A DNA stretch of 37,129 bases. Origin: an uncultured Selenomonadaceae bacterium. Its GTDB lineage: Bacteria > Bacillota > Negativicutes > Selenomonadales > Selenomonadaceae. The stretch is from assembly GCA_905234195.1 (NCBI GenBank), contig CAJOFR010000026.1, positions 1 to 37,129 of the forward strand, given 5' to 3'. The notes beneath the pieces were generated by a model, which searched no databases, was not told where the DNA came from, and saw only the letters and a list, made by a program, of their open reading frames with translations. The position numbers were made by a program, and so were the translations under genes. Positions within the stretch are counted from its first letter, which is position 1. Each line of letters opens with the position of its first letter. This document shows positions 2,657 to 34,490 of the stretch, in pieces.

Positions 2657-2663
2657 TAGGAGA

Positions 2664-2776
2664 CTCTTGGGGCGAGGTGAAATTCCTCACCGGCGGTAAA
2701 AGTCCGCGAGCCAAAAATTTTTCAGCAAGACCCGGCGAAATTCCGGGACCGACGGTAAAGTCCGGACGGGAAAGAG
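2664..2776 (+). promoter_or_regulatory. FMN riboswitch (RFN element)
   Basis: The conserved RFN core is clear: GGGGCGAGGTGAAATTCC, ACCGGCGGTAAA, CCGCGAGCC, then GGGACCGACGGTAAAGTCC and GGACGGGAAAGAG. The closing stem pairs CTCTT (2664-2668) with AAGAG (2772-2776). It lies between its own promoter and an intrinsic terminator ahead of ribE. FMN binding should therefore stop transcription early, shutting the operon down when flavin is plentiful. Confidence 0.95.
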
Positions 2777-2802
2777 CATTTTGAGTTGGCGTAGAAAATT
2801 TG

Positions 2803-6250: not shown

Positions 6251-6257
6251 TTTTTTT

Positions 6258-7485
6258 TTAAATCATGTGTACCAGCGGGTATGAATTGAGCGGAATGCTG
6301 TGCGCGTCTGACAAAAATGCAAGCGCGTTCAGAAAATCTTTCCCTTCGACGAACCCCGCCTTTGTCAATTCAAATCCTAACGTACGGTAATCCGCAACGA
6401 GTATGAAAAAAATTTTTTTGCCGCGAGATTTTTTCATGGAGTCTATTAAATTTTGGAAAGACCCCTGCGCGCCGGCGGCAATTATTTCTTCGCTGTCACT
6501 TATGGCGAAGATTTTTTTTGCCGTGTCGAGATTTTCCGGCGGTATGAAGAAAGCGCGCTCCTTGCCGGACATTGCCGCAGAAACTTGTATCGCGAAATTT
6601 TGCCGCTCAATAAAAATCTGCCGTGTGCCCTCGTAAAGGTGACTGATTGTCTCGACGCTGAACCATGGAGTTTTCGCGAAATACCCCAGCCAAAGCCTAT
6701 TAAATTCGTTGTGAATATCGAGTGTCAAGGAAGCACCGACATAATGATAAATTTTTTTCTCAACAATATTTTCGCCGGTCTCTTGTGCAAAATTTACAAA
6801 CCTGTTGAATTTTCGCGGCAACTTCACGTAGTCATTCGAGAAACAATAATTCAAAACATCTTGGTCAAAAGATCTGTACCTTAAATCCGAAGCGATAAGA
6901 TTCATTCCTTGACATATATGTTCATTTTCATTTCTCATCTTTTCCAAATTTATGACGAGTACACCGGCGTTGAAATAGTCTTCGATTTTTACAAAATTAT
7001 TTCTGCACAAGAAAAAAGAATCATTCGTATCTACGCCGTTTGAAAATTCAGGAACGGCCGCCAAAATATGATCGCCAATACAAATTTGCCAAAGCTCGTT
7101 TATATTTAAGTCTACTATCGTATCAGCGTCGAGATAAATAAATTTTTTTATATCCTTGTCAAATACGAAAGGAGCCAAGAGCCTGTAAAGTGAGGCAACG
7201 CTGTAAGCAGTACTGGTTATTGATGGCATCAGTTGCAGAAATTCTTTAATCTTATCCGCGCAAATTTTTTCGACGTTGTAAAATTTTACGACCTGCCCAT
7301 AACGCCCCGCAATGTAAACAAATTTTTCGCGGTTATCTTGCGTCAAAGTGTTGTCGTGCAAAATATGTATCGTAACCGACGGGGGGGGGGTTAGAAACAT
7401 TCTCAAATAGAGATAACATAGAAGTGCCGGTAAATTTCGAGTACCGCCCGAATTTATCGTAGAGCCCGTAGCAAACGTGAATCAT
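6258..7485 (-). CDS. GT8-family glycosyltransferase, phase-variable, OFF as written (C10 tract)
   Basis: The GT8 family includes LPS core galactosyl- and glucosyltransferases. The best start is the ATG at 7485, with AAAGGAGA 5 bases upstream; it begins MIHVCYGLYDKFGRYS, the standard start for this family. After SLFENVSN the coding strand has ten C (7381-7390), which shift the frame; translation stops after about 47 residues. Nine C would join this N-terminus to SVTIHILHDNTLTQDN and give a 408-residue enzyme. The rest is intact: DAD metal-binding motif in YLDADTIVDLN, and a conserved C-terminal extension shared with its neighbour. An internal ATG just before the tract (7406) could give a shortened product without the first beta strand, probably inactive. 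It is the last gene of the operon with the GT8 copy and FtsA-like gene upstream. Confidence 0.85.
7381..7390 (-). repeat. C10 coding-strand tract (G10 on the plus strand), phase-variation site
   Basis: Ten C encode prolines between SLFENVSN and SVTIHIL. Only 9 (or 6, 12) C keep the gene in frame; with 10 it is OFF. It lies at the same codon position as the C8 tract in the neighbouring copy. Confidence 0.8.
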
Positions 7486-7496
7486 AAAAATCTCCT

Positions 7497-8710
7497 TTAC
7501 ATTATTTTTACCAGCGGGTATGAATCGAAATGAATGCCGTGCGCGTCTGACAAAAATGCAAGCGCGTTGAGAAAATCTTTTCCTTCGACGAACCCCGCCT
7601 TTGTCAATTCAAATCCTACCGCCTGAAAATCTCCAACGAATATGAAAAAAATTTTTTTGCCGCGAGATTTTTTCATGGAGTCTATTAAATTTTGTAAGGA
7701 CTCCTGCGTGACGGCGGCAATTATTTCTTCGCTGTCACTTATGGCGAAGATTTTTTTTGCCGTATCGAGATTTTCCGGTGGTATGAAGAAAGCGCGTTCC
7801 TTGCCGGACATTACCGCAGAAACTTGTGTTGCGAAATTTTGCCGCTCAATAAAAATTTGTCGTATGCCCTCATAGAGACGACCAATTATATCAGAATTGA
7901 ACCAGGGAGTTTTCGCGAAACACTTTACCCACAAACGATTGGGAGCCTCGTCCATATTCAGCTGCAAGGTGCCGCCCGCGTAGTGGCAAATTCTGTCTTC
8001 AGCATGCAGACTGCCGTTGATACGTTTGCTGCCGACAAGCCTGTTAAATTTTCTCGGCAACTTCACGTAGTCATTCGAGAAACAATAATTCAAAACATCC
8101 TGGTCAAAATGAATGTATCGCGGGTGTTGACTTTGAAAGGTAAATCCTTTTTTCAAGGTCTCTTCTTCCCTGCGCAACCTCTCCAAATTCATTACCATGA
8201 CTCCGGAATTAAAATAATTTTCCCCCTTCACGAAACCTTCTCGACAAATCGGGAAAAATAATTGCGGATCAATCGACTCGTTTGCAATTTCGGGAACAGC
8301 CGCCAAAGGTTTATCGCCTATATCAATTTCCCACAAAGTTTTTATATCCAAATTAATGATAACGTCCGAATCCAGGTAGATAATTTTTTCTATCTCCTTA
8401 GGAAATAAATTTAAAATCATAAAACGAAAAATCGAACCCACCGTGTAAGCCAGATTCATTTCCTTGAAATACGAAATTTCATTCGCGCAGAGCTGTTCGA
8501 CGTTATAAAATCTTACAGCTTGCCCATAACGCCCCGCAATGTAAACAAACTTGTCGCGGTTATCTTGCGTCAAGGTGTTGTCGTGCAAAATGTGCACCAC
8601 AACCGACGGGGGGGGTTAGAAACATTCTCAAATAGAGATAACATGGAAGTGCCGGTAAATTTCGAGTACCGCCCGTCTTTGTCGTGGAGCCCGTAGCAAA
8701 CATGAATCAT
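7497..8710 (-). CDS. GT8-family glycosyltransferase, phase-variable, OFF as written (C8 tract)
   Basis: A tandem paralogue of the gene at 6258-7485. It has the same leader (AAAGGAGA, then ATG at 8710, protein start MIHVCYGLHDKDGRYS). The coding-strand C run is eight long (8608-8615) and again out of frame; one extra C would give a 404-residue protein continuing SVVVHILHDNTL. The DxD motif is DSD in YLDSDVIINLD. Both termini are nearly identical to the neighbour's, while the middle (about residues 80-250 of the full protein) differs clearly, so acceptor or donor specificity may differ. Its stop overlaps the neighbour's Shine-Dalgarno site, and its own Shine-Dalgarno overlaps the stop of the FtsA-like gene, giving one tight operon. 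The sugar and acceptor are unknown; an LPS or surface glycan is the likely target. Confidence 0.85.
8608..8615 (-). repeat. C8 coding-strand tract (G8 on the plus strand), phase-variation site
   Basis: Eight C at the same codon position as the C10 tract of the adjacent paralogue. The gene needs nine C to be in frame. Flanking bases are the same in both copies. Confidence 0.8.
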
Positions 8711-8722
8711 AAAAATCTCCTT

Positions 8723-11206
8723 TCAGTCGTTGCGAATAAAATCTTGAATGGTGAGTTTACGGCGCGTAGTCAATTCTCGCATGGGTGTGCTGTTCGCCGG
8801 AATTTTTACGCTTGGCAAAATCGTTTCGTTAATATCTTTTTTTATCGGGACTTCAACGCCGCTGGTCGAAGGCAAAATCGTACCGTCCGGAGCCTTCAAA
8901 ATAATTTCGAGGGTATCGCCGTCGCGCATGGGTGAGGCAAAATCTGCGGGGAGGTCGTTTACTTTTATGGAAAAACTTATGCGGCTTTTCGGTGGCGGCG
9001 GCTGAAAATCAACGGCAAGCAACGCATCCGAAACAGTCACCGCATTATTTTCAATCTTCCTGTAATTAATCGTCGCGCCGTCATTAATCAGCGTGTTCAT
9101 GTTCGCGGGGCGGTTGTTGACGGTCAAAGTTATGCTTGCCATCGTCGGAATTTTGAACTCTTGCCCGCCGTAGAAAATTTTTATCGAAGAATTAATCTCG
9201 GAAATTTTTATAATGTCCGCCGCCTTCGGGCTGTCGTTCGCGTAGTACTCAATTTTGTCGCCGTCGTGAACGGGCAGGGAAATTTGAACTTCGCCGTCGT
9301 CCATTAAAATTTTCGGCGTGCAAGTGTAGCTGTACTTCTTCCCGTTCAGCGTGTAAGAAATTTTTCGTCCGGTGGGAGGATAGCCGGTCAGACGAAGTAC
9401 CTCGCCAATCGTGCGCGGCATAACCGTTTGAATAACGTCGCCGTCTTTCAGCAGACGAGTAGGCAGGCTGACTTCGTCGTTGACGGTGATTTTCGGCGAA
9501 ATAATTTCTTCAAGCCCGTTAATTTCGACGGTAATACCTGGTTCAGGCGTCACGACGTCGCCGAGCCGCAGTTCGGGGATTTTTCCGTCCTTGCCGCGCT
9601 CAATATTTATGAAACATTTATTTTTAATCGGCGTCTCCAGCGTCGCGGGTTCCCCGTCGACAGTGACTTCAGCCAGCGTGCCCATGCTCCCGCGAAAAAA
9701 TTTCCTCTCGCCGTCGACAGTGATCATTAAGCCGAGCCCGGGTTTGCCATTCCATTTGCTCAGCCGAATCCCCGCGTTCAAGAAGGCGTCGCCAATCGTC
9801 AAATCTTTGAAATGGAAGAGGCTGTATTCCACGTCGTTTATGTAGACCGTCAAAAAATGTAGCGTATGAATCGACGCAACCTTCAAAATTCCCAGCGGGG
9901 TTATCGCGTCCGGCGAATAAAGTTCGCGGGGAATATTGACAATCCCTTCGACGACGTCGGGCTTGCGAACACCAACGCGCGGTTCGGGAATACTCAACGC
10001 GGCGGCAACATGCTTTTGCAAATTCGGAGTCAGCGCACCGCCACCCACGAGCATCACCGCTTGAGGAACTTCACCGCCGTTCAATTCGAGCACGGTTTTT
10101 GAAATCGCTTCGGCAAGACGAATAATGCTGTCGGTTATCGCGGTGACAATCTCCTCCGCCGTCAAATCGTGACTGCCGCCCAAAATGTCCGTGAACTTAG
10201 ATTTTTCGCCGAGCGCGGATTTTCTTTTTATGTCTTCGGCAACATTGAAATCGAGCAGAAATTTTTGGCTCAACGCCTCTGTAATTTCGTCGCCGGCAAC
10301 CGGAACCATTCCATAGGCGATAACCGAACCGTTCTTCGTAATGGCGACGTCCGAAGTGCCCGCGCCAATATCGACGAGCACCAAATTTAAATGGCGCATC
10401 GTCGGCGGAATCAAAACATTAATCGCGGCGATAGGCTCCAGTGTCAGCGCGCGCATCTCCAGACCGGAATATTTCAGCGCGCTCTGCATTGAATCGATAA
10501 CTTGACGCGGCAAAAAAGTTGCAATGACCCTCGCTTTGGCAATCCTCCCGCGCTGACCGACCAAACTTTTTAAGCGACTGCCGTCGAGTTCGTAATTTAT
10601 CACGCTGAAGCCGACGCAGTAATAACTCATCTCGTCCGGAACTGCCCGCGACTCCGAAAGTTGAGATTGAGCAAGCTGCACGCCCGCGAAGTCCAAATTA
10701 CTCTGCTGCTCCGCCGTAACAAGCCCGTGCACTTCCGTTTCAGCAACTGCCGTCATTGTGTAAAGAGCACGCCCCGCCGCCGCCACCGCCGCGCTGGTGA
10801 GTTTGCCCACTTTCTCCTCCAGCTCGTCACGTACTTGATTGATCACTGCGGCGACTTGCGGCACGTCATGAATCTGTCCGTCAAGCATCGCGCGGGTGGT
10901 GTGCTCCCTGCGTCTCGTTGCAATGATTGTCAGCCGCCCGTCCTCTTCCTGCTCGGCAACAATCCCGATAACACTGCGCGTACCAATATCGAGGGCGAAA
11001 ATTTTTTCACGCCCGTCGTTTTTGTAATCAATCTTAGGAATTTCTTCGACTTCCGTAACTTTTGGTTCTTCAGAAATTTTTTTTGCGCGGGTGCGTTTCG
11101 GTTTTTCAACAACAGGAGTTTCAGAATTTTTTCTCCTTCTGCCGCGCCTGGGTTTTGGTTCTTCAGCAGAAATTTTTATTTCGTCGTCCATTTTTATTCT
11201 GGGCAT
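8723..11206 (-). CDS. FtsA/PilM-like actin-fold ATPase with long C-terminal repeat region
   Basis: An 827-residue protein. Residues 1-65 are a charged Lys/Arg/Glu-rich tail. Residues about 68-440 form an FtsA-like actin-fold ATPase: phosphate-1 motif FALDIGTRSVIG, phosphate-2 LVDIGAGTSDVAI, and adenosine motif MLVGGGALTPN. FtsA tethers FtsZ to the membrane; PilM organises pilus assembly. Residues about 450-790 are extra and hold imperfect repeats with the recurring pattern hydrophobic-VN followed by (N/R/H)DG(D/A)xI, for example LTVNNRPANMNTLINDGATI and IKVNDLPADFASPMRDGDTL. These may be beta-grasp-like modules. The start has GGGAGGAA 6 bases upstream. It ends LTIQDFIRND, perhaps a membrane- or partner-binding tip. 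It heads the operon carrying the two phase-variable GT8 genes. FtsA itself is normally about 420 residues, so the role here is uncertain. Confidence 0.75.
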   Translation of the reverse strand: MPRIKMDDEIKISAEEPKPRRGRRRKNSETPVVEKPKRTRAKKISEEPKVTEVEEIPKIDYKNDGREKIFALDIGTRSVIGIVAEQEEDGRLTIIATRRREHTTRAMLDGQIHDVPQVAAVINQVRDELEEKVGKLTSAAVAAAGRALYTMTAVAETEVHGLVTAEQQSNLDFAGVQLAQSQLSESRAVPDEMSYYCVGFSVINYELDGSRLKSLVGQRGRIAKARVIATFLPRQVIDSMQSALKYSGLEMRALTLEPIAAINVLIPPTMRHLNLVLVDIGAGTSDVAITKNGSVIAYGMVPVAGDEITEALSQKFLLDFNVAEDIKRKSALGEKSKFTDILGGSHDLTAEEIVTAITDSIIRLAEAISKTVLELNGGEVPQAVMLVGGGALTPNLQKHVAAALSIPEPRVGVRKPDVVEGIVNIPRELYSPDAITPLGILKVASIHTLHFLTVYINDVEYSLFHFKDLTIGDAFLNAGIRLSKWNGKPGLGLMITVDGERKFFRGSMGTLAEVTVDGEPATLETPIKNKCFINIERGKDGKIPELRLGDVVTPEPGITVEINGLEEIISPKITVNDEVSLPTRLLKDGDVIQTVMPRTIGEVLRLTGYPPTGRKISYTLNGKKYSYTCTPKILMDDGEVQISLPVHDGDKIEYYANDSPKAADIIKISEINSSIKIFYGGQEFKIPTMASITLTVNNRPANMNTLINDGATINYRKIENNAVTVSDALLAVDFQPPPPKSRISFSIKVNDLPADFASPMRDGDTLEIILKAPDGTILPSTSGVEVPIKKDINETILPSVKIPANSTPMRELTTRRKLTIQDFIRND

Positions 11207-13667: not shown

Positions 13668-14393
13668 TTGAAAAAACATCACAAGGCAAAATTATGCGAA
13701 ACGCAAGTGGAAAATTTCGGCGTGCAAGTCGGCGAACTGACAATCTTTCAAGACGTGAACTTCACTTTGCACTGCGGGGAGCTGACGGCGTTAATCGGAC
13801 CGAACGGCGCGGGAAAATCGACGCTGTTAAAATCCATTCTCGGCGAAGTCCAACACACGGGCAAGCTGAATTATTTCGACGCGAAGGGAAAACATTTGCG
13901 CCCGATAATCGGCTACGTCCCGCAGACTTTAAAATTCGACACGACGTCGCCAACTTCGGTGCTGGATTTATTCATGGCGTGCTTGACGTGGCGGCCGGTG
14001 TGGCTGTGCCCGTCGAGTTTTATCCGCGAAAGAGTTTTGAAAAATTTGCGGCGCGTGCAAGCAGAATATTTAATCGACAGGAGGCTCGGCGCGCTTTCCG
14101 GCGGAGAACTTCAGCGCGTGCTTTTGGCTTTGGCTCTCGACCCGCTGCCGGATTTGTTGTTGCTTGACGAACCTGTCAGCGGCGTCGACAAAATCGGAAT
14201 GGAAATTTTTTACGAACTCGCGGCAAAACTCTGCGCTGAAGAAGATTTGGCGATACTTTTAATCTCGCACGATTTAGACATGGTTGAAAAATACGCTGAC
14301 AAAATTATTTTGCTCAACAAGCGCGTTTTGAAATTCGGCAATGTGCAGGAAGTTTTTCAATCTGACGAAATGAAACAAGTTTTTAGTGGTTAG
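13668..14393 (+). CDS. ABC transporter ATP-binding protein
   Basis: A 241-residue ABC ATPase. Walker A is GPNGAGKST (about residues 43-51), the Q-loop lies in YVPQTLKF, the signature is LSGGELQR, Walker B is DLLLLDEP and the H-loop is ISHDLDM. The sequence style, with DTTSPTSVLDLFMACL after the Q-loop, is closest to zinc/manganese ATPases of the ZnuC type, yet its partner here is an ABC-2 exporter permease rather than a metal-uptake permease. The TTG start at 13668 immediately follows the permease TGA. No substrate-binding protein gene is present. The first copy of the three-hairpin repeat lies 30 bases downstream. Confidence 0.85.
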   Translation: MKKHHKAKLCETQVENFGVQVGELTIFQDVNFTLHCGELTALIGPNGAGKSTLLKSILGEVQHTGKLNYFDAKGKHLRPIIGYVPQTLKFDTTSPTSVLDLFMACLTWRPVWLCPSSFIRERVLKNLRRVQAEYLIDRRLGALSGGELQRVLLALALDPLPDLLLLDEPVSGVDKIGMEIFYELAAKLCAEEDLAILLISHDLDMVEKYADKIILLNKRVLKFGNVQEVFQSDEMKQVFSG

Positions 14394-14420
14394 AGATTAG
14401 TAGTTAGTTTGAAGATGAGA

Positions 14421-14535
14421 GTAGCCGCCCAAGGATGGGCGGCTGCCCGCATTTGGTCGCGTGATGCGACCTCTGCGGGCAGTTTTCTTTTGCTTCTTTT
14501 CTTTTGCACCAAAAGAAAAGATTCAAAAGAAGGAA
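14421..14535 (+). repeat. Three-hairpin dispersed element, copy 1
   Basis: Hairpin A: stem AGCCGCCC/GGGCGGCT, loop AAGGAT (14423-14444). Hairpin B: outer stem GCCCGCA/TGCGGGC (14445-14480), inner stem GGTCGC/GCGACC, loop GTGAT. Hairpin C: CTTTTCTTTTG/CAAAAGAAAAG, loop CAC (14496-14520). It lies 3' of the ABC ATPase gene, in the same orientation. It fills most of the gap before radA. GTTAG-like short repeats flank it on both sides. Confidence 0.8.
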
Positions 14536-14558
14536 GAGATTAGGGGAAAGGGGTTAGT

Positions 14559-15944
14559 ATGGCTAAGAAAAAAACTAAATACGTTTGTCAAGAATGCGGC
14601 GCGGAGTCCGTCAAGTGGCTGGGAAAATGTCCGACTTGCGGAAATTGGAACACTCTCGTTGAAGAAACTTTCGAGGAAATAAAATCTCCTCACGCTTTGA
14701 CGACGGCATACGAAATTCCGCGCAGGATCGCCGAAGTTGATTTAACGGAACTGCCCAGATTTTCGACGGGCTCCGGCGAACTCGATAGGGTGCTCGGCGG
14801 CGGATTAATTCCAGGCTCGATTATTTTAATCGCGGGAGATCCCGGCGTCGGCAAGTCCAGTTTGACGCTGGCGGTCTGTGCTTTTGTCGCGAAAAATAAT
14901 CGGCGCGTCCTCTACGTCACCGGCGAAGAAAGTTCCAGGCAAATTCGCATGCGCGCCGAACGCCTCAACGCACTCGCCGACGAGCTTTTCATTTGCGCGG
15001 AAAATAATCTTGAACGGATTGTTCAGCACGTCGAAAAAATTGAGCCCGAACTTCTGATTGTCGATTCCATTCAGACGATTTATAAATCCGATATCGAAAG
15101 CGCGCCGGGCAGTGTTTCGCAAGTTCGCGAATGTTCGGCGGCATTAATGCGGCTGTCGAAAAGTCACGGCGTCACGACTTTTATAATCGGTCACGTCACG
15201 AAGGACGGCAACCTTGCCGGGCCGCGCGTCCTTGAACATATCGTCGACACGGTTTTGTTTTTCGAGGGCGAAAGAAATGCTGACTTCCGCGTTTTGCGCG
15301 CGATAAAAAATCGTTTCGGCGCGACTTCGGAAATTGGTCTGTTTGAAATGCGTGACAGCGGACTCGTTGACGTGCCCGACGCCTCCAAACTTTTCTTGCC
15401 GGAAAAAGCCGACGACATTGGCAGCGTGATTGTCCCGACAGTCGAAGGAACGCGCCCGTTGCTCGTCGAAGTTCAAGCACTCGTCGCGCCGACTCCCTTC
15501 ATGCCTCCGCGCAGAACAAGCGATTCAGTCGACATAAAACGAATCCAACTTTTGCTTGCCGTGCTGGAAAAAAGACTGCACCTTAGTATCGGTTCCTGCG
15601 ACGTCTACGTTAAGACGGCGGGCGGAATAAAAATCGACGAGCCGGCGGCAGATTTACCAATATCCGTTGCGCTGGCGTCCAGTTTCGCGAACAGAAAACT
15701 CTTGCCGCAATGCGCGATATTCGGCGAAGTCGGATTGGGCGGGGAAGTTCGCGCGGTGAGCAAGGCGCGGCAACGTGTGGACGAATCAATCAAAATGGGT
15801 TTCGCAAATATAATCCTGCCGAAAAAAAATTTCGCCGAAGTCTCAAAAATGCAGACTTCGACGAAAATAAATTTATTGCCCGTCGAAAATTTACGCGACG
15901 CGCTGAAAATCTCAATGCCGCGCGTCAAGGAGGGAGAATCATGA
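14559..15944 (+). CDS. radA: DNA repair protein RadA
   Basis: RadA (Sms) is a RecA-like helicase that extends branched intermediates in recombinational repair. The 461-residue protein has the full layout: an N-terminal zinc finger CQECGAESVKWLGKCPTCG, Walker A GDPGVGKSS near residue 100, Walker B LLIVDSIQT, the RadA-specific KNRFGATSEIG motif near 250, and a C-terminal Lon-like domain (from about 285) with GSCDVYVKTAGGIKIDEPAADL. All key motifs look intact. GGGGAAAGGGG lies just upstream of the ATG. Its TGA overlaps the ATG of cobO, so the two are coupled. Transcription probably starts between the repeat element at 14421 and the gene, or reads through from upstream. Confidence 0.97.
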   Translation: MAKKKTKYVCQECGAESVKWLGKCPTCGNWNTLVEETFEEIKSPHALTTAYEIPRRIAEVDLTELPRFSTGSGELDRVLGGGLIPGSIILIAGDPGVGKSSLTLAVCAFVAKNNRRVLYVTGEESSRQIRMRAERLNALADELFICAENNLERIVQHVEKIEPELLIVDSIQTIYKSDIESAPGSVSQVRECSAALMRLSKSHGVTTFIIGHVTKDGNLAGPRVLEHIVDTVLFFEGERNADFRVLRAIKNRFGATSEIGLFEMRDSGLVDVPDASKLFLPEKADDIGSVIVPTVEGTRPLLVEVQALVAPTPFMPPRRTSDSVDIKRIQLLLAVLEKRLHLSIGSCDVYVKTAGGIKIDEPAADLPISVALASSFANRKLLPQCAIFGEVGLGGEVRAVSKARQRVDESIKMGFANIILPKKNFAEVSKMQTSTKINLLPVENLRDALKISMPRVKEGES

Positions 15945-25534: not shown

Positions 25535-26500
25535 ATGAATATTGCCGCACTGGGCACCGGAAAAATTATCCCCGAAGCCATTGCCGCTATGCAAGCGTCA
25601 AAAAAGTTTAACGTCGTCACGATTTGGGCGCGTCCTCACAGCCGCGACAAGGCTCAAGCTCTGGCAGAAAAATTTCACGTCGAAAAAATCAGCACAGACC
25701 TTGACGAAGTTTTGAACGATAGGGCGATTGATTTTGTTTATGTCGGGCTGGTGAACAGCGTCCACTACGAATACGCGAAGAGGGCTCTCGACGCGGGCAA
25801 GAATGTTATTCTCGAAAAACCCTTCACCGTAACTTCTGAAGAGGCGCAAAATTTGATTGACCTTGCCACCGCGAAGAAACTCTATCTTTTTGAGGCGGTG
25901 ACTAACTTGCATATGCCGAACTTCTACGCTCTTCGTGACGCCGTGAAAAAAATTGGCGAGATTAAAATTATTCAGGCGAACTACTCCCAGTATTCCAGCC
26001 GCTACGACGCTTACAAGGAAAAAAAAGTTGCGCCCGCCTTCGACCCGAAAACTTACGGCGGCGCGTTGCGCGATTTGAACGTCTACAATATTAATTTGGT
26101 CGCCGCGCTTTTCGGGATGCCGAAGAAAATTAATTACACGGCGAACATTGGATTTAACGGCGTCGATACTTCGGGCGTTGCTGTCCTGGAATACGACGGC
26201 TTTGTTGTGAATTGTATTTGCGCGAAGGATTCGGCAAGCCCTTGTTATTTCGTGGTGCAGGGCGACAAAGGTTTTGTTCGCGTCGACGGCGGCTCTAATG
26301 AATTAAATTCCGTAGAGGTTGCCATTCGCGGCGAGGAAGTTCAGAAAATTAATCTGAATAATTTTGAACACCGCATGGTTCACGAATTTATAGAGTTCGG
26401 GGAAATTTTTGAGGCGGGCGATTATGAAAAAGTTGTTGCCGGCTTGAAAACTTCCCTGCTCGTCACGAAAATTATCGAGCAATTAAGTGGTAAGGGGTAA
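25535..26500 (+). CDS. Gfo/Idh/MocA-family oxidoreductase
   Basis: A 321-residue NAD(P)-dependent oxidoreductase of the Gfo/Idh/MocA family, which acts on sugars, inositols and related polyols. The dinucleotide loop is IAALGTGKIIPEAI. The family's EKP motif is present in KNVILEKPFTVTSEEAQ near residue 95, and the second domain has KTYGGALRDLNVYNINLVAALFG, where Asp and Asn lie near the expected catalytic position. The lysine of EKP is intact. The ATG has GGAGGGA upstream. It ends LSGKG at 26500, within a GTAAGGGG short tandem repeat. The substrate is unknown; co-transcription with glycerate kinase suggests a sugar-acid pathway. Confidence 0.88.
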   Translation: MNIAALGTGKIIPEAIAAMQASKKFNVVTIWARPHSRDKAQALAEKFHVEKISTDLDEVLNDRAIDFVYVGLVNSVHYEYAKRALDAGKNVILEKPFTVTSEEAQNLIDLATAKKLYLFEAVTNLHMPNFYALRDAVKKIGEIKIIQANYSQYSSRYDAYKEKKVAPAFDPKTYGGALRDLNVYNINLVAALFGMPKKINYTANIGFNGVDTSGVAVLEYDGFVVNCICAKDSASPCYFVVQGDKGFVRVDGGSNELNSVEVAIRGEEVQKINLNNFEHRMVHEFIEFGEIFEAGDYEKVVAGLKTSLLVTKIIEQLSGKG

Positions 26501-26551
26501 GGGGTAAGATTTTTTCTTTCTAAAAATTTTTCCTCTCTTTAAATTTAGCAT

Positions 26552-26649
26552 CTTCTTTTCTTTTGGCGCAAAAGAAAAGAAGCAAAAGAAAACTGCCCGC
26601 AGAGGTCGCATCACGCGACCAAATGCGGGCGGCCGCACATCCCTGTGCG
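26552..26649 (-). repeat. Three-hairpin dispersed element, copy 2
   Basis: In element orientation (minus strand): hairpin A, stem CGCAC/GTGCG, loop AGGGAT (26649-26634). Hairpin B, outer GCCCGCA/TGCGGGC, inner GGTCGC/GCGACC, loop GTGAT (26630-26595). Hairpin C, a perfect 14-bp stem with a 3-base loop (26582-26552). It lies 3' of the EF-G-like gene in the same orientation, in the convergent gap after the oxidoreductase. Confidence 0.85.
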
Positions 26650-26685
26650 TTTTTGGAGATATTAATTTTTTTGGAGATATTAATT
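26650..26685. repeat. 18-bp perfect tandem duplication at the EF-G stop
   Basis: The unit TTTTTGGAGATATTAATT occurs twice in a row (26650-26667 and 26668-26685); the second copy runs into the stop codon of the EF-G-like gene. It is probably a replication-slippage duplication. Confidence 0.85.
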
Positions 26686-28771
26686 ATTTTTCAGCGTTTG
26701 CAGCTTTGTTCTCTTCGATAATTTTTTCGGCAAGCTTATCCGGCATCGGGTCGTAGTGAGAAAACTTCAGGCTGTAGGAGCCGCGCCCTTGAGTCTGCGA
26801 GCGCAAATCTGTTGCATACTTGTAAAGTTCGGACGCGGGGATTAACGCCTTGACTTCAGTCATGCCTTTGCCCTTCGGATCCATTCCGAGAATCTTCCCG
26901 CGCTTTGAATTGAGTTTGCCGATAATGTCGCCCATGTATTCGGAAGGAACGAGCACGGTAATTTCGTCAATCGGTTCAAGCAAAATCGGTTCGGCGGCAA
27001 GGACGCCCTTCTTTATCGCGATAGCCGTTGCCATTTTGAACGCCGCCTCCGAAGAATCGACGGGGTGATAGGAGCCGTCATAAAGATTGACGCTGACATT
27101 AACGACGGGATAGCCCGCGATAATCCCCTGCGCCAAAGTTTCATAAGTTCCCTTCTCGACAGCGGGGAAATATTGGCGCGGAACACTGCCGCCGAAAACA
27201 CTTTCCGAGAACACGACGTTAAACGGCTTGTCGGTTTGCTCTTTGTTCGGACCGATTTTCAGCCAAACGTCACCGTACTGCCCGTGACCGCCGGATTGTT
27301 TCTTGTGCTTGCCCTGCACTTCGACGGACTTGCGAATAGTTTCGCGATAATCGACGCGCGGTTCGCCGAGTTTCATTTGCACGCCGAACTTGCGCTGAAT
27401 TTTGTCGCTGAGAATATCGAGATGAACTTCACCGACGCCGCTAAGAATCGTCTGTTTCGTCGCGGGGTCTTTCACAAGTTTAATCGTGGGGTCTTCGTCC
27501 TGCTGGCGGGTAATCGCGCCGATAACTTTATCCTCTTCGCCCTTCTTCGTGGAGCTGACTGCCATTGCGAGCATCGGTTCCGGATAATCAATGCGCTCGT
27601 ATTTAATCGCCGCGCCTTTTTCGCAGAGGGTGTCCGCAGTTTTCGCATTGGTGAGCTTAGACGTGACGACAATGTCACCGGCGTGAGCAACCTCAAGCGG
27701 AATTTGTTTCTTGCCCTGCATCGTGAAAAGCCCGCTGATTCTCTCCTGCCCTTCGGAATTTTCCCCGATAAGCTGATAAGTTGCGTCCGCCTTCATATCT
27801 CCGGTGAACACGCGAATATAAGACATTCTGCCAACGAAAGGATCGACGAGCGTCTTAAAAATCTGCGCGCTGAATGCGTCGGTGACCTTGCGCTCAATCG
27901 GTTCGCCGTCAGCGGGATTCGTACCGGTATAATTTTTTGCATTGGGCGCGGGCATATCTTCGACGACGCGATTCAAAAGTTTGTCGATGCCGATATTTTG
28001 AAGAGCAGAGCCGACGAACACAGGGAAAACTTTCGCTTGACGAACACCCTCCGCCAAAGCCTCCGCGATTTGTTTTTCGTCCAGGTCTTCGACTTCGCCT
28101 TCAAGATATTTTTCCATAAGCTCGTCGTTGTATTCGGCGATAATATCCAGCATCTCAAGGCGCGCGTTCTCCACTTCGTCTTCAAGGTCAGCGGGAACAT
28201 CATTTTTAACTGCGTCAGAAATTTTCGTGTACGCCGTAATTAAATCTATAACGCCCTTGAAAGAATTTTCCTTGCCGATTGGGAGCTGCACGGGTACGAC
28301 GTTATTCCCGAACTTAGCTTTTATATCGTCGAGTGTCTTTTGAAAATCGGCGTGCTCACGATCCATTTTGTTGATAAAAAATGCACGCGGCAAGTTCAAA
28401 TTTTCGGCAAGAGCCCACGCCTTTTCTGTTTCCACTTCCACGCCGGCATTTGCAGCGACAATTATCAGCGCGGAATCGGCGGCCTTCATCGCGCCCATGA
28501 CTTCCCCGACGAAATCGGGATAACCGGGCGTGTCAATGAAATTTATCTTGTAGTTTTTCCATTCAGTCACCGCGAGGGAATCGCCGATAGTCATTTTGCG
28601 TTTCGTTTCTTCCGCCTCGTAGTCAAGCAAGCTAGTCCCGTCGTCGACTTTGCCGAGACGTTTAACCGCGCCGCTGTTATAAATGCAAGCATCAAGCAAA
28701 CTCGTCTTGCCGGTTTTTCCGTGACCCGCAACCGCTACATTTCTGATAAATTCGCTTGTGTATTCTTTCAT
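26684..28771 (-). CDS. Elongation factor G-like GTPase (EF-G paralogue)
   Basis: A 695-residue translational GTPase with the EF-G domain order. The P-loop is GHGKTGKTSLLD, unlike the AHIDAGKTT of housekeeping EF-G, and matches the EF-G-like branch found alongside fusA in many firmicutes. G2/G3 are TIGDSLAVTEW and DTPGYPDFVGEV, and G4 is NKMDREHADF. The C-terminal half has SGVGEVHLDIL, GGHGQYGDVWLKIGPN and LVPSEYMGDIIGKLNSKRGKILGMD. No str operon genes (rpsL, rpsG, tuf) surround it, supporting a secondary copy. Its role may be in ribosome recycling or stress, but this is inference. GGAGGT lies 6 bases before the ATG. Its stop codon lies within an 18-bp tandem repeat next to the three-hairpin element. 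Confidence 0.9.
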   Translation of the reverse strand: MKEYTSEFIRNVAVAGHGKTGKTSLLDACIYNSGAVKRLGKVDDGTSLLDYEAEETKRKMTIGDSLAVTEWKNYKINFIDTPGYPDFVGEVMGAMKAADSALIIVAANAGVEVETEKAWALAENLNLPRAFFINKMDREHADFQKTLDDIKAKFGNNVVPVQLPIGKENSFKGVIDLITAYTKISDAVKNDVPADLEDEVENARLEMLDIIAEYNDELMEKYLEGEVEDLDEKQIAEALAEGVRQAKVFPVFVGSALQNIGIDKLLNRVVEDMPAPNAKNYTGTNPADGEPIERKVTDAFSAQIFKTLVDPFVGRMSYIRVFTGDMKADATYQLIGENSEGQERISGLFTMQGKKQIPLEVAHAGDIVVTSKLTNAKTADTLCEKGAAIKYERIDYPEPMLAMAVSSTKKGEEDKVIGAITRQQDEDPTIKLVKDPATKQTILSGVGEVHLDILSDKIQRKFGVQMKLGEPRVDYRETIRKSVEVQGKHKKQSGGHGQYGDVWLKIGPNKEQTDKPFNVVFSESVFGGSVPRQYFPAVEKGTYETLAQGIIAGYPVVNVSVNLYDGSYHPVDSSEAAFKMATAIAIKKGVLAAEPILLEPIDEITVLVPSEYMGDIIGKLNSKRGKILGMDPKGKGMTEVKALIPASELYKYATDLRSQTQGRGSYSLKFSHYDPMPDKLAEKIIEENKAANAEK

Positions 28772-30833: not shown

Positions 30834-30923
30834 AAGAAATCACCGCCCAAAAATTTTTTTCAGTTTACCAAAACGAAAAAGTTTTGTAAAATTTTGGCGG
30901 GAAAAATTTTTTGGAGTGATACG

Positions 30924-31781
30924 ATGCTGAAAAAAAATGTTGAAACTTTTTTGGGCTGTGACGCGGATTATGACGAGGCGCGGCTGGTGATTTTCGGCGC
31001 GCCTTTTGATTCGACGACTTCTTACAGACCCGGCGCGCGTTTTGCGAGTCGGGTGATGCGCGCTGAATCTTACGGGCTGGAAACTTATAGCCCCTATCAG
31101 AATCTTGACGTGACTGACTACAAAATTTTTGACGGCGGGGATTTGGAACTTTGTTTTGGCGATACCGAACTTGCGTTGGGGGACATAACGCGCCTTGCCG
31201 AAAAAATTTTGGGCGACGAAAAAATTCCGGTGATGCTTGGCGGCGAACATCTGGTGACGTTGGGGGCGATTCGCGCGGCGGTGAAAAAATTTCCTACGCT
31301 TGCCGTGATTCACTTCGACGCCCACGCGGATTTGCGCGACGATTATTTGGGCGCGAAACTTTCACACGCGACTGTTATGCGGCGGACTTATGATTTGGTT
31401 GGCGACGGGAAAATTTTTCAGTTCGGGATAAGGAGCGGCGATCGCGCAGAATTTCTTTTCGCGGAAAATCACACGCGCCTAAAAAAATTTGACTTCGGCG
31501 GGCTGGAAAAAGTTTGCGCCGAAGTCGGAGGGCTCCCGATTTATTTAACGATTGACCTGGACGTTTTGGATCCTGCGGTTTTTCCGGGCACGGGCACACC
31601 GGAGGCGGGCGGCGTGAATTTTTTGCAGTTGCTCCATGCCGCGCTGAAAGTTATCCGCAGTTGCGACGTCGTTGCGCTAGATTTGGTAGAGTTATCGCCG
31701 CCGTATGATCCCAGCGGAATTTCCACAGCGACTGCCCTAAAAATTTTGCGCGAGATTCTGCTCGCCCTGTCTTCAAAATAA
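30924..31781 (+). CDS. speB: Agmatinase
   Basis: Agmatinase hydrolyses agmatine to putrescine and urea; putrescine is the substrate of the nearby spermidine synthase. The 285-residue ureohydrolase has all manganese ligands: GGEHLVTLGAIRA, VIHFDAHADLRDDYLG, and TIDLDVLDPAVFPGTGTPE with SYRPGARFASRVMR upstream. I chose the ATG at 30924 because GGAG lies 8 bases upstream and the protein then starts MLKKNVETFLG; an open frame to 30894 lacks a ribosome site. The gene runs in the same direction as speE but is separated by the broken methyltransferase, so it needs its own promoter; none is obvious. A three-hairpin element follows its stop. Confidence 0.95.
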   Translation: MLKKNVETFLGCDADYDEARLVIFGAPFDSTTSYRPGARFASRVMRAESYGLETYSPYQNLDVTDYKIFDGGDLELCFGDTELALGDITRLAEKILGDEKIPVMLGGEHLVTLGAIRAAVKKFPTLAVIHFDAHADLRDDYLGAKLSHATVMRRTYDLVGDGKIFQFGIRSGDRAEFLFAENHTRLKKFDFGGLEKVCAEVGGLPIYLTIDLDVLDPAVFPGTGTPEAGGVNFLQLLHAALKVIRSCDVVALDLVELSPPYDPSGISTATALKILREILLALSSK

Positions 31782-31797
31782 CTCTGAAAAAAAAAGA

Positions 31798-31895
31798 GGC
31801 CGCACAAGGACGTGCGGTCGCCCGCATTTGATTGCGTGATGCAATCTCAGCGGGCAGTTTTCTTTTGCTTCTTTTCTTTTGCGCCAAAAGAAAAG
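31798..31895 (+). repeat. Three-hairpin dispersed element, copy 3
   Basis: Hairpin A: stem CCGCAC/GTGCGG plus a G-U and a G-C pair, loop AAGGAC (31798-31819). Hairpin B: outer GCCCGC/GCGGGC, inner GATTGC/GCAATC, loop GTGAT (31820-31855). Hairpin C: a 14-bp stem with loop CGC, within 31868-31898. It lies directly 3' of speB in the same orientation. The inner stem of B has two paired changes relative to the other copies. Confidence 0.85.
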
Positions 31896-31923
31896 AAGAG
31901 ATCCAAACTCTTTGGAAGAAATT

Positions 31924-32994
31924 TTAAAGTTGGAGTTCAGAAATTTTTTGATTCAATTCGTTAATACGAATATTTTGCGCGGCGTTGATAATCCTAAAAT
32001 GCGTCGTCTTCGTGAAAAAATAAGACAGCAACGAAACATTTTCAGCGGGATTAACCGAAAAAATAACTTTGCGGAAAAAGTCATCAATCTGAAACGGCTC
32101 AAGGTGATCAATCCCGTAAAGGCTTTGGCAAATCGTGTCGAGGCGGTTTTGAATGTACCAATCAAGAAAAATATAACGGAACTTCGGATTTCTGTTAAAG
32201 TACTCCGTTCTCGTCATGACCTTATCCATCGCGTTGACGGAACCTATCATATTTTGCGTCATCTCTACGGCGTCGCGCCCCTTGTGCGAAAGCGAACCGT
32301 CACGCAATCTGTAGAAATAAAAGACATTCGGGACGCGGAGATATTTTTTCGCCTTGAGCAAGCAAGTAAATGTAAAGACTAAATCTTCCCACGCGGTGAT
32401 ATTCGGGAATTTAATGTCGTGCTTGACGAGAAAATCCCTTCGGAAAAGTTTATTGGCCGCCCACCAAAGAGTTTGGAAGTTCACGAACCGCATGATACGC
32501 TCGCCAATGTCTTCAGTCTCGAACGTCGGTCTGTCGACGAAAGTGCCCCGCTGGAAAGTGTACACGGAAATATTTTCCACGTCGCCGTCTTTAAAGGAAA
32601 AACATTTTTCGGTAGCGATAACTTCGGCTTGAGTTTCCTCCGCGATATTGTAAAGTTCTTCAAGGGCTGTCGACGAAATAAAATCGTCGCTGTCAACAAA
32701 AGTTATGTACTTGCCGCGCGCAGATTGCATGGCGGTATTTCTCGGCAAACCCGGAAAGCCGCTATTTTTTTTCAGCTTAATTAATTTGAGTCTGCCTTCA
32801 AACTGCGGTGCCATTTCGGAAACTACGTCGACGGATTTATCGCTGCTGCAGTCGTCGACGACGATAATTTCAAAGTCCTTGAAAGACTGATTCAGCAGAT
32901 TGTCAAGACACAGTTTCACGTACTGTTCCGCGTTGTACATGGCGATTATCACGGAAATTGCTGGAGCTTTTTTTACGTCTTTTGGTTTTGCCAT
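31924..32994 (-). CDS. GT2-family glycosyltransferase
   Basis: A 356-residue inverting glycosyltransferase of family GT2. It begins AISVIIAMYNAEQYVKLCLD, followed by EIIVVDDCSSDKSVDV and YITFVDSDDFISS, with the metal-binding DSD at about residue 97, and ITAWEDLVFTFTCLL, which holds the catalytic-base ED motif. The C-terminal part is helical with NELNQKISELQL, probably coiled. No membrane segment is visible, so it is a cytoplasmic enzyme acting at the membrane. It follows the LCP gene after 14 bases on the same strand, which suggests a link with surface polysaccharide or wall glycopolymer assembly. The sugar and acceptor cannot be read from sequence. Confidence 0.9.
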   Translation of the reverse strand: MAKPKDVKKAPAISVIIAMYNAEQYVKLCLDNLLNQSFKDFEIIVVDDCSSDKSVDVVSEMAPQFEGRLKLIKLKKNSGFPGLPRNTAMQSARGKYITFVDSDDFISSTALEELYNIAEETQAEVIATEKCFSFKDGDVENISVYTFQRGTFVDRPTFETEDIGERIMRFVNFQTLWWAANKLFRRDFLVKHDIKFPNITAWEDLVFTFTCLLKAKKYLRVPNVFYFYRLRDGSLSHKGRDAVEMTQNMIGSVNAMDKVMTRTEYFNRNPKFRYIFLDWYIQNRLDTICQSLYGIDHLEPFQIDDFFRKVIFSVNPAENVSLLSYFFTKTTHFRIINAAQNIRINELNQKISELQL

Positions 32995-33008: not shown

Positions 33009-34490
33009 CTACCTTGTTCTGAAGGTGTCGCCGCGCGTCGGGGTATCGTCCTCGTAATTTTCGGGGACAGTCCTGCGCTCAATTCGCGGCGTGATACTTT
33101 CCGAGCGGCTTTCGTAATTCGAGCGGTCGTTATAATTTGACGTGCGGTCTTCCAAAGTCTGACGATTGTTTTCATAATTCGACGAACGATTATCATAATT
33201 CGAGCGGCTGTTCAAATTTGCGTCGTCATAATTTCTGCGCGTCGAGGAAGTTCTGTCGTCGCGGGAAGTTCTTTCGTCGTAGTAGGTTGAAGAATTGCGG
33301 CGGGCAGTCGAATTTTCACGAGAAGTTTCAGTTTCGCGGGAGCCACGAGAATTTTCGGAGCGGCGGGCATTTTCGCGGACGTCACGAAGAGTTTCGCCGG
33401 TGTCACGAGAATTTTCAGAGCTGCGATAAGAATTGCGCGGGTTGCCGATATTTTCCGCGCCTTTGGAAATTTCACCGGCACTCGAAGGAAGTGACTCCTT
33501 GTACTCGTTGTCGTCCTTTTCGGCGCGCTTTTTCAAATCGGAATTCATGGAAACGCCCAGCCCTTCGGCCATCATGAAACGCAACTCCTGCACGTTCGGA
33601 ATCCAATAACTTATCTCGTCGATATAGAGCGGATAACCGGGCACCATATCCGTCGTCAATCCGTTCTGTTGCGCCTCCTTCACCGCGCCGGCAATTTCCA
33701 GGAGCTGTTTAAAAGTCATGTCGGTATCGACGGCGGCAAGTACTTCGCGGAGAATGGAAGGGATATGAGTAATAATTTCCGGAGAAGTGACTTTATCCAT
33801 ACAAGCCGCCATAAATTTTTGCTGGCGTTTGATTCTGCCTATGTCGCCTTCGCTGTCACGGTAGCGGACGTAAGTCACAGCGGTTTTGCCGTCCATGTGT
33901 TGGAGACCGGGAAAAAGATTTATAAAAAGTCCGCCGTCGTCGTCCCAAGGATCTTCGTAACGCATTCTCTTTTCCACGTCAATATCCACGCCGCCAATCG
34001 CGTCAATAATTTTTACGAAACTGCGCGTGTTGATTATAACGTAGTGGTCAATATCGATGCCCAAAAGATTTTCGATAGTCCTTTCGGAAAGGGGCTCGCC
34101 GCCGTAAGCATAAGCGGCGTTAATTTTATCGAAGCCGTAGCCTGGTATTCTGACGCGGGTATCGCGCGGCACAGAAAGTATCGACGCTTGATCATATTCA
34201 GGGTCAACCGTCGCGACCATCATTGTATCGGAGCGACCGACGTCATCTTTTCGCACGTCGACGCCCATAATCAAAACCGTCGTCTTGTCTTTCGCCTTTA
34301 TGAGTTCGGTATCCATATTCTTCCGCTCGTCCGGAGTAATCACGGGCTTTTTAGAATCGAACAGCCCCGAAGACGCAAGCAATGCTCCTGCGGACGCGGA
34401 AACTACAAAACAAAAAATTAAAAATATTATCGGCAAGACACTGCGTTTTTTTTCATGTTGTTTATGCGGCATCATATTTGAATTCTCCAA
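33009..34490 (-). CDS. LytR-CpsA-Psr (LCP) family protein with long disordered tail
   Basis: LCP proteins transfer undecaprenyl-linked glycopolymers onto peptidoglycan in Gram-positive bacteria. The 493-residue protein has a short cytoplasmic N-terminus and one membrane helix (about 17-40). The LCP domain (about 70-270) shows TVLIMGVDVRKDDVGRSDTM, ILSVPRDTRVRIPGYGFDKINAAYAYGG, DAIGGVDIDVEKRMRYED and VTYVRYRDSEGDIGRIKRQQKF, with the phosphate-binding arginines and aspartate. Residues about 325-493 are low complexity, rich in Arg, Ser, Asn, Glu, Asp and Tyr, with repeats such as SRSNYDNRSSNYENN and NYNDRSNYESR. Such a tail is not part of the family core. The GT2 gene follows in the same transcript. 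Promoter at 34515-34543. Confidence 0.92.
   Translation of the reverse strand: MENSNMMPHKQHEKKRSVLPIIFLIFCFVVSASAGALLASSGLFDSKKPVITPDERKNMDTELIKAKDKTTVLIMGVDVRKDDVGRSDTMMVATVDPEYDQASILSVPRDTRVRIPGYGFDKINAAYAYGGEPLSERTIENLLGIDIDHYVIINTRSFVKIIDAIGGVDIDVEKRMRYEDPWDDDGGLFINLFPGLQHMDGKTAVTYVRYRDSEGDIGRIKRQQKFMAACMDKVTSPEIITHIPSILREVLAAVDTDMTFKQLLEIAGAVKEAQQNGLTTDMVPGYPLYIDEISYWIPNVQELRFMMAEGLGVSMNSDLKKRAEKDDNEYKESLPSSAGEISKGAENIGNPRNSYRSSENSRDTGETLRDVRENARRSENSRGSRETETSRENSTARRNSSTYYDERTSRDDRTSSTRRNYDDANLNSRSNYDNRSSNYENNRQTLEDRTSNYNDRSNYESRSESITPRIERRTVPENYEDDTPTRGDTFRTR

Follow-up and report, generated by a model that had tools for sequence, protein, structure and literature searches.

A family of extragenic elements, each about 105 nt long and made up of a hairpin A, a hairpin B, a pyrimidine linker and a hairpin C, occurs across the Selenomonadaceae and is amplified within genomes. 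Copies of the element covary in their stems, have fixed loops, carry a linker that matches one arm of hairpin C in parallel, and lie near stop codons. The element preserves its fold while its sequence varies, and so has the look of a genuine functional or mobile element. Three copies had been pointed out by a sequence-only reading of the window, a stretch of 37,129 nt that is the whole of contig CAJOFR010000026.1 (C26) in a 2.09-Mb genome of 47 contigs (GCA_905234195.1). The RadA protein encoded in the window shares 83-91% identity with homologs from mostly rumen and gut genome bins, two of which are named Quinella (86 and 87%), and such sequence likeness places the source organism in the Quinella group of rumen Selenomonadaceae. 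Quinella are described as rumen bacteria without cultures (PMC9585023), and a word search of the available text of that genome paper found no palindrome, intergenic or repetitive element.

Copies in the window and in its genome

Copy 1 spans 14424-14531 on the plus strand. Its hairpin A (14424-14443; stem GCCGCCC/GGGCGGC) carries an ANGGAN hexaloop (AAGGAT, 14431-14436) on a C-G closing pair and is followed by hairpin B (14444-14481), with a two-part stem and the inner loop GTGAT (14461-14465), by the pyrimidine linker TTTTCTTTT (14483-14491), put forward here as a Hoogsteen third strand and perhaps a U-tract behind hairpin B, and by hairpin C (14496-14520), the 5' arm of which is pyrimidine and the 3' arm purine. 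Copy 2 occupies 26551-26649 on the minus strand, with hairpin A at 26634-26649 (loop AGGGAT, 26639-26644), hairpin B at 26595-26630, the linker at 26584-26592, and hairpin C at 26552-26582; on the plus strand, hairpin A of this copy is followed by a terminator-like TTTTT. Copy 3 (31798-31900, plus strand) consists of hairpin A at 31798-31819 (loop AAGGAC, 31806-31811), a GATTGC-type hairpin B at 31820-31855, the linker at 31858-31866, and hairpin C at 31868-31898, and an A-run at 31787-31795 is a T-run after hairpin A on the minus strand. All three copies thus contain the three successive hairpins reported by the earlier reading, together with the constant loops C[A(A/G)GGA(T/C)]G and GTGAT on compensating stems, and each folds far beyond its dinucleotide shuffles on both strands (z -6.1 to -10.9).

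Copy 1 lies between a gene for an ABC transporter ATPase (13668-14393, plus strand), the stop of which is 28 nt from the model match, and a gene for a RadA-like protein with AAA ATPase and Lon-type C-terminal domain matches (14559-15944, plus strand). In its own orientation, copy 2 follows an elongation factor G type gene (26684-28771, minus strand), which converges with a GFO/IDH/MocA oxidoreductase gene (25535-26500, plus strand) that is antisense to the element. Copy 3 follows an arginase family gene (30894-31781, plus strand), convergent with a glycosyltransferase family 2 gene (31924-32994, minus strand) that is likewise antisense to the element.

The earlier statement that no named family matches was borne out. 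Across the whole window the element had no match in Rfam 15 at the gathering score, and the 67 matches to copy 1 below threshold (E up to 10) were mostly to microRNA families on the low-complexity hairpin C and were in no case credible. Judging from Rfam 15 and a non-exhaustive literature search, the element appears to have no existing name. The sole Rfam family in the window at the gathering score is an FMN riboswitch aptamer (2659-2781, plus strand). Elsewhere in the window, the region 6257-8723 looks like a tandem duplication, with adjoining minus-strand frames (6258-7406 and 7497-8600) and stretches that are 86-95% alike, flanking DNA included. Short direct repeats of about 36 bases lie within a reading frame at 33330-33425, and the contig ends possibly share related sequence, in the form of imperfect inverted repeats near both ends (10-50/37063-37103 and 87-115/37022-37050).

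A first covariance model was built from 35 selected copies of the window genome (mean column identity 91%), and 150 of 1826 candidates in that genome were scored with it. The search returned 126 match rows, 4 of which were weak opposite-strand matches of strong copies and were not counted, so that the genome holds at least 122 strong copies rather than the three first noticed. Matches reach the contig edge on C4 (end), C15 (start), and C7 (start), so that assembly breaks may have occurred at the element and 122 could be an undercount. Hairpin A combines a 7-8 bp stem with a loop of six bases, hairpin B has five bases in its loop and a stem in two parts, and hairpin C has the pyrimidine 5' arm and purine 3' arm seen in copy 1; the linker is T4CT4 or T5CT4 in most copies. 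The copies group into a few types, the inner B stem being GGTCGC in 84 of the 122, GATTGC in 26 (as in copy 3), one of two further types in 4 copies each, and something else in 4. Deletion variants are common, many of them within hairpin A, and by the criterion applied here an intact hairpin A is absent from 27 of the 122. A low-complexity intergenic repeat of the GGGATTAG / TTAGTGGTTAG type (TGACTAC on the other strand) stands beside many copies, for example at 14390-14415 and 14538-14558 of the window and at about 545-800 of locus L385. Right flanks in the window genome show recurrent tails after hairpin C (GATGCTAGATTTAAAGAGAG, GATGTTCATTCAAAAGAG, GAGCTCCAAACTCTTTGG, CCCCTTATCAAGGGG), some of which are small palindromes.

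Covariation, linker, and loops

An alignment of 65 copies drawn from many genomes shows changes on both sides of 34 of its 35 pairs, with 502 cells against 125 in shuffled alignments and at most 90 in slid ones; the sole pair that never changes is the C-G pair closing loop A. Among 29 copies outside the second model (see below), 29 of 35 pairs do so (238 cells against 62 shuffled and at most 48 slid), as do 18 of 35 among the 19 copies of G321, a genome of another genus (85 cells against 27 shuffled and at most 8 slid), where further pair types are no more numerous than in shuffles. Fitting the alignments to the structure biases such counts, but the slid controls still fall far below them. Covariation in the family is strong, and the outcome that would have counted against the earlier reading, three copies only and no covariation beyond them, is excluded. 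The earlier reading had taken paired changes as the mark of selection on structure, and that view stands as regards the covariation itself; the changes are nearly pure Watson-Crick, however, and alone are no proof of an RNA folded from one strand. DNA cruciforms, folding of both strands, or arm-to-arm copying could also be the source of the compensation.

Wobble pairs are rare in all five alignments counted, and both strands of the element fold in silico. Few wobble pairs are expected if both strands fold, because a pair that wobbles on one strand is mismatched on its complement. Raw ratios of G.T to A.C were 37:17 in alignment A4 and 18:7 in A5; omission of two poorly paired positions gave 26:1 in A4 (which has copies in common with A2 and A7), 14:1 in A5, 47:5 in A7, 3:6 in A2, and 2:1 in A6. 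In A7, 29 of the 47 G.T pairs fall at one position common to one subfamily, and a direct parse of hairpins A and B gives 7:4; the asymmetry therefore lends weak support to the forward strand as the folded one.

Base by base and in parallel, the pyrimidine linker fits the purine arm of hairpin C (T to A and C to G); read from its letters, it is the parallel (Hoogsteen) complement of that arm, a relationship that is new here, as is the pseudoknot helix described below. Symmetric T4CT4 linkers are uninformative in this respect, and the comparison therefore rests on 97 asymmetric linkers, of which 88 match in parallel only, 9 match both ways, and none match in antiparallel only. In 242 of the 244 copies parsed (from 254 sequences), the run that follows C is the same as the one that follows G; this holds for 70 of 72 distinct combinations of genome, linker, and arm, against a mean of 28 and a maximum of 44 in 5000 permutations (permutation counts, like the E-values given here, ignore relatedness). 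By a cruder longest-match-run score, for which 211 of 225 copies were parsed, parallel is better in 32 of 57 types, equal in 21, and poorer than antiparallel in 4. Linkers were recognised in 14 of the 19 copies of G321, and in all 14 the run after C equals the run after G of the arm; in three of the five remaining copies (L402, L409, and L415) an insert of the form CGCCTGTGCCC...GGGTATTTGG takes the place of the linker. These letters suggest that the linker can join the hairpin C stem as a Y.R.Y triple strand.

In some copies a stretch 5' of the linker is complementary to the hairpin C loop, allowing a pseudoknot helix (D). Such a helix of at least 4 bp occurs in 40 of the 244 parsed copies, from 17 of the 43 sampled genomes, and these 17 all fall in the same genus; it was not seen in copies of the window genome. 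Its letters vary (CGCCC/GGGCG, AAGCCC/GGGCTT, GCGTC/GACGC, GCGGC/GCCGC, and others), and it is present in 22 of 25 distinct long-loop cases, against a permuted mean of 13.3 and a maximum of 18 (1000 permutations). H-type pseudoknots with a triple helix are known from telomerase RNA and from the SAM-II and preQ1-II riboswitches. In the 17 genomes the topology is equal to theirs, with helix D, a pyrimidine loop, and a helix containing a purine strand; the element differs in that no ligand-gene context was seen around it and in that the window genome shows no helix D. What defines an intrastrand pyrimidine triplex, a Hoogsteen-parallel third block beside a Y/R hairpin, is present in the sequence. 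Intrastrand triplex motifs (PIT/BoxC/TMECO, ITxF database) form an established class among the repeats of bacteria, and the order of Hoogsteen pyrimidine, pyrimidine, and purine blocks on one strand has been described among them, as has their repetition in bacteria; TMECO, however, is a G/C-rich purine motif, whereas that of the element is an A/T-rich pyrimidine motif, and in the main text of that source the word Selenomonas is absent (PMC4666352, as far as its text was available). A further difference is that the element joins this motif with two hairpins of GGA type and, in 17 genomes, with a pseudoknot helix.

Loop A reads C[ANGGAN]G in all 95 window-genome copies with an intact stem, in all 175 correctly parsed copies of four genus genomes (185 of 203 were parsed, and 10 evident mis-parses to other hairpins were excluded), and in 18 of the 19 copies of G321. 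Its letters A, G, G, and A are invariant in the 65-copy alignment and in the 29 further copies, one of which lacks the closing C and one an N. Loop B is mostly C[GTGAY]G or C[NGGAN]G, with the overall form C[N(T/G)GAN]G. Moreover, C[ANGGAN]G was found in none of 47 other hairpins with 6-nt loops on either strand of 338 kb. An ANGGAX hexaloop placed directly on a stem is the proposed high-affinity site of CsrA/RsmE, and in RsmZ such a loop is closed by a C-G pair, according to the parts of the two sources consulted (PMC4005645, PMC7652899); in its letters, loop A is a match to this site. The window genome encodes a CsrA of 74 aa, adjoining FliW. FliW has been described as the protein antagonist in other bacteria with csrA beside fliW. 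Of the 25 genus genomes, csrA was found in 21, and its presence does not track that of the element: G003 has csrA and no element, and G005, G014, and G020 have the element and no csrA that was found, these genomes being incomplete.

Range among genomes and gene context

The first model gave matches in 20 of 41 genomes, all of them in the genus (20 of 25) and none among the 16 from other families of the class, and a second model gave matches in 58 of 66 genus genomes. Among 300 genomes of the class, at least 49 had a match to the second model: 20 belong to the genus and 21 to the family's other genera, where three matches are weak (E 4e-6 to 4e-4), and a further 8 lie elsewhere, with weak matches; among 299 genomes of the phylum there were at least 7, of which three were weak and outside the family. 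Both counts are lower bounds because 13 candidates per genome were scored. The best E-value of the weak matches beyond the family was 1.4e-6. Two loci, L379 from outside the family and L381 from inside it (G122), have a pyrimidine/purine hairpin without hairpins A and B at the place read; between linker and arm of L379 there is no parallel match. No match was found in 5 of the 25 genus genomes with the first model or in 8 of the 66 with the second, including one listed as 100% complete, and the element is therefore dispensable.

Applied to 64 loci around radA, the second model produced 12 rows from 8 loci, each belonging to the Quinella group; the loci titled Selenomonas, Schwartzia, or Megamonas had no match. 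When an orthologous empty site of copy 1 was sought, the RadA loci L187-L223, L229, L243, and L250 showed neither the upstream gene end nor the element. Plasmid and phage records held no match to one copy from G321. A motif of the hairpin C type, which we take to occur in other phyla, had one match in viral contigs, a locus that the element model scores weakly (31.7 bits); a variant linker of that motif had none there.

Genes around the copies were called with a home-made hexamer caller on stretches of about 3 kb. For the 122 copies of the window genome, 47 lie in convergent gaps, 34 are antisense to both neighbors, 21 are sense to both, 13 are in divergent gaps, 4 are inside a gene, and 3 were unresolved. 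Convergent gaps account for 47 of 115 resolved copies in this genome, 23 of 38 in G006 (best 40 of 101 copies), 12 of 21 in G019 (best 21 of 45), and 6 of 18 in G015 (best 20 of 72), against a background of 8 convergent among 74 gaps of at least 100 nt from few regions (the window and the RadA loci). Copies in G006 and G019 are thus mostly convergent, and those in G015 are mixed. Across the four genus genomes, co-directional copies number 32 sense and 53 antisense; a cruder caller gave 27 and 30 in the window genome, and in G015, with 6 sense and 4 antisense copies and a looser spacing, antisense is not preferred. The sequence-only reading had placed all three copies 3' of a gene in the orientation of that gene, which is true of the window but does not generalise to the family. 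The idea that the element belongs to sense-strand 3' UTRs was accordingly rejected: antisense copies outnumber sense copies, and sense copies are absent from G321.

G321 has a chromosome of 3,003,680 bp. All 18 of its resolved copies are antisense to both neighbors, with none sense and none convergent; in all 19, the gene whose stop codon lies near hairpin C is antisense, and in 13 of the 19 the C end is within 12 nt of that stop. Of 23 convergent copies in G006, 20 have the right-hand stop at -3 to +5 nt relative to the element, and in the window genome it is mostly 20-110 nt away. The closeness of hairpin C to the antisense stop in G006 and G321 indicates that in these genomes the element is anchored to the right-hand stop codon more than to the sense gene on its left. 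Additionally, the run of A on the left side of hairpin A, which reads as a U-tract on the reverse strand, contains more A where the right-hand gene is antisense (5.35 A per 10 nt in 63 copies) than where it is not (3.87 in 30 copies; p = 3e-4). In G321 the strand of the element follows the half of the chromosome, with 9 minus copies up to 1.26 Mb and 10 plus copies from 1.58 Mb; sampled GC skew stays positive as far as 1.55 Mb and is negative from 1.70 Mb onward, with two copies in the unsampled switch zone. The seven copies of G232 have their strands in blocks, and strands are mixed in G324, of another genus, and in the window genome (G000). The left flanks of G321 copies (L374, L398, and L400-L416) commonly have about 11 bases, roughly TATATCGTTGC, directly 5' of hairpin A.

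Possible roles and origins of the element

We tentatively favor a REP-like dispersed extragenic element that may act as a two-way 3'-end structure for genes, because of the convergent gaps, the nearness to stop codons, the A-runs facing antisense right-hand genes, and the scarcity of wobble pairs. Transcripts from either side would fold the element. In the forward direction, the GC-rich hairpin B and the U-rich linker after it could terminate transcription; in the reverse direction, hairpin C would come shortly past the stop codon, and hairpin A with its U-tract could terminate where the neighbor is convergent. We infer that the upstream message would be ended or protected and the neighbors insulated. 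Copies would have spread by some mechanism, and the fixed loops would be a protein binding site, for which CsrA is the best named candidate on the forward strand; termination leaves the conservation of the loops unexplained, and a protein presumably reads them. A terminator scan listed the reverse strand of copies 2 and 3; it did not list hairpin B with its linker in the forward direction, which was seen by inspection. Bidirectional intrinsic terminators resemble the element in their convergent gene pairs, GC-rich stems, and T-runs on both strands of part of the copies, but the element is larger and more conserved than such a role needs. Against the favored reading, G321 has no U-tract after any hairpin in the sense direction of its genes and none of its 18 resolved copies is convergent, and a plain terminator therefore does not fit there. 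The lack of antisense preference and looser spacing in G015, the more distant right-hand stops of the window genome, the mixed strands of G324, and the dispensability of the element also speak against it.

Turnover and strand bias leave room for a selfish origin, in which hairpin DNA without a host function, its hairpins and fixed loops being what a mobilising enzyme recognises, would have spread as single-stranded DNA or by recombination in the manner of REP/RAYT and would be tolerated only behind genes. We consider this possible though rather doubtful. It would account for copies that are similar within a genome and different between genomes, for the few copies in promoter-side (divergent) gaps (13 of 115 in the window genome), and for the switch of strand with the sign of GC skew in G321, although the strand there also follows the genes, which makes replication and gene direction inseparable, and strands are mixed in G000 and G324. 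Turnover is visible where flanks about 94% alike hold the element in G011 and, in G002, another repeat with only the last arm of hairpin C; a repeat of the GGGATTAG / TTAGTGGTTAG type stands in place of most of the element at that G002 site. REP sequences and BIMEs occur as numerous short extragenic palindromes downstream of genes, similar to one another within a genome. The element is likewise present as many extragenic palindromic copies (122 strong, 4 of them called inside a gene), but it has three hairpins and a linker, fixed ANGGAN and NKGAN loops, and no full RAYT match in the genus. A search of 25 genus genomes, many of them incomplete, for PF01797 (Y1_Tnp) gave partial matches only, in four (G000, G002, G007, and G014), one of these below the cut-off (G007) and one at a contig end; a RAYT as mobiliser is thus unsupported in the genus. 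Nor were terminal inverted repeats seen, as the two ends of the element are different hairpins, and no target duplications of the MITE kind were noticed by eye in the flanks inspected. The nearness to stop codons in G006, G019, and G321, moreover, is tighter than avoidance of genes requires.

Were the forward strand the active one, its transcripts might carry hairpin A as a CsrA hairpin, sometimes hairpin B as a second GGA hairpin, and a 3' U-tract or triple helix, and bind or titrate CsrA as a miniature RsmZ/CsrB present in more than 100 copies in 3' UTRs or as short RNAs. This seems unlikely, even though loop A is fixed in nearly all parsed copies while the stem letters vary, is matched by none of the 47 other hairpins, agrees with the proposed RsmE site down to its C-G closing pair (in the available parts of PMC4005645 and PMC7652899), and has csrA beside fliW in the window genome. 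Sense orientation is not favored and is absent from G321, the gene transcripts of which would carry the complement; the B loops are mostly GTGAY rather than GGA; element and csrA do not track each other in distribution; and no conserved promoter was noticed by eye in the flanks inspected. The Csr/Rsm RNAs CsrB and RsmZ share with the element the ANGGAN hexaloop on a C-G-closed stem and a U-rich stretch behind the hairpins, and differ from its dispersed pattern of about 100 copies near stop codons, more often antisense, with B loops that are mostly GTGAY. The fuller proposal of a portable RNA 3'-end module, in which two CsrA-type hairpins and a U.A-U triple strand or pseudoknot at about 100 gene ends would provide genome-wide CsrA control or titration, appears distinctly improbable. 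CsrA would fit the letters of the loop and not the orientation in G321, whereas a selfish single-stranded DNA element would fit orientation and turnover and is left without its enzyme in the genus. It is very improbable that the compensation is a mere by-product of DNA, through correction of palindromes at replication with no selection on structure. Nearly all changes are Watson-Crick and wobble intermediates are few, as arm copying would have it, but such copying should not make linker and purine arm agree in parallel (70 of 72 distinct cases, against a mean of 28 and a maximum of 44 over 5000 permutations), because that agreement is not a reverse complement, and it leaves the loops fixed across genera and the pseudoknot helix unaccounted for.

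In a structured repeat of a whole family, a third strand that co-varies with its stem by Hoogsteen and not Watson-Crick rules would mean that evolution itself reports a triple helix. Three separate themes, extragenic palindromes, intrastrand triplex motifs, and CsrA-type loops, are joined in one element. If the CsrA module is true, control or titration by CsrA would be a genome-wide 3'-end function in a lineage with csrA beside fliW. If the element is selfish, it would represent a hairpin family that spreads without the expected transposase. If it is functional, it would show how about 100 gene ends are organised in uncultured rumen bacteria.
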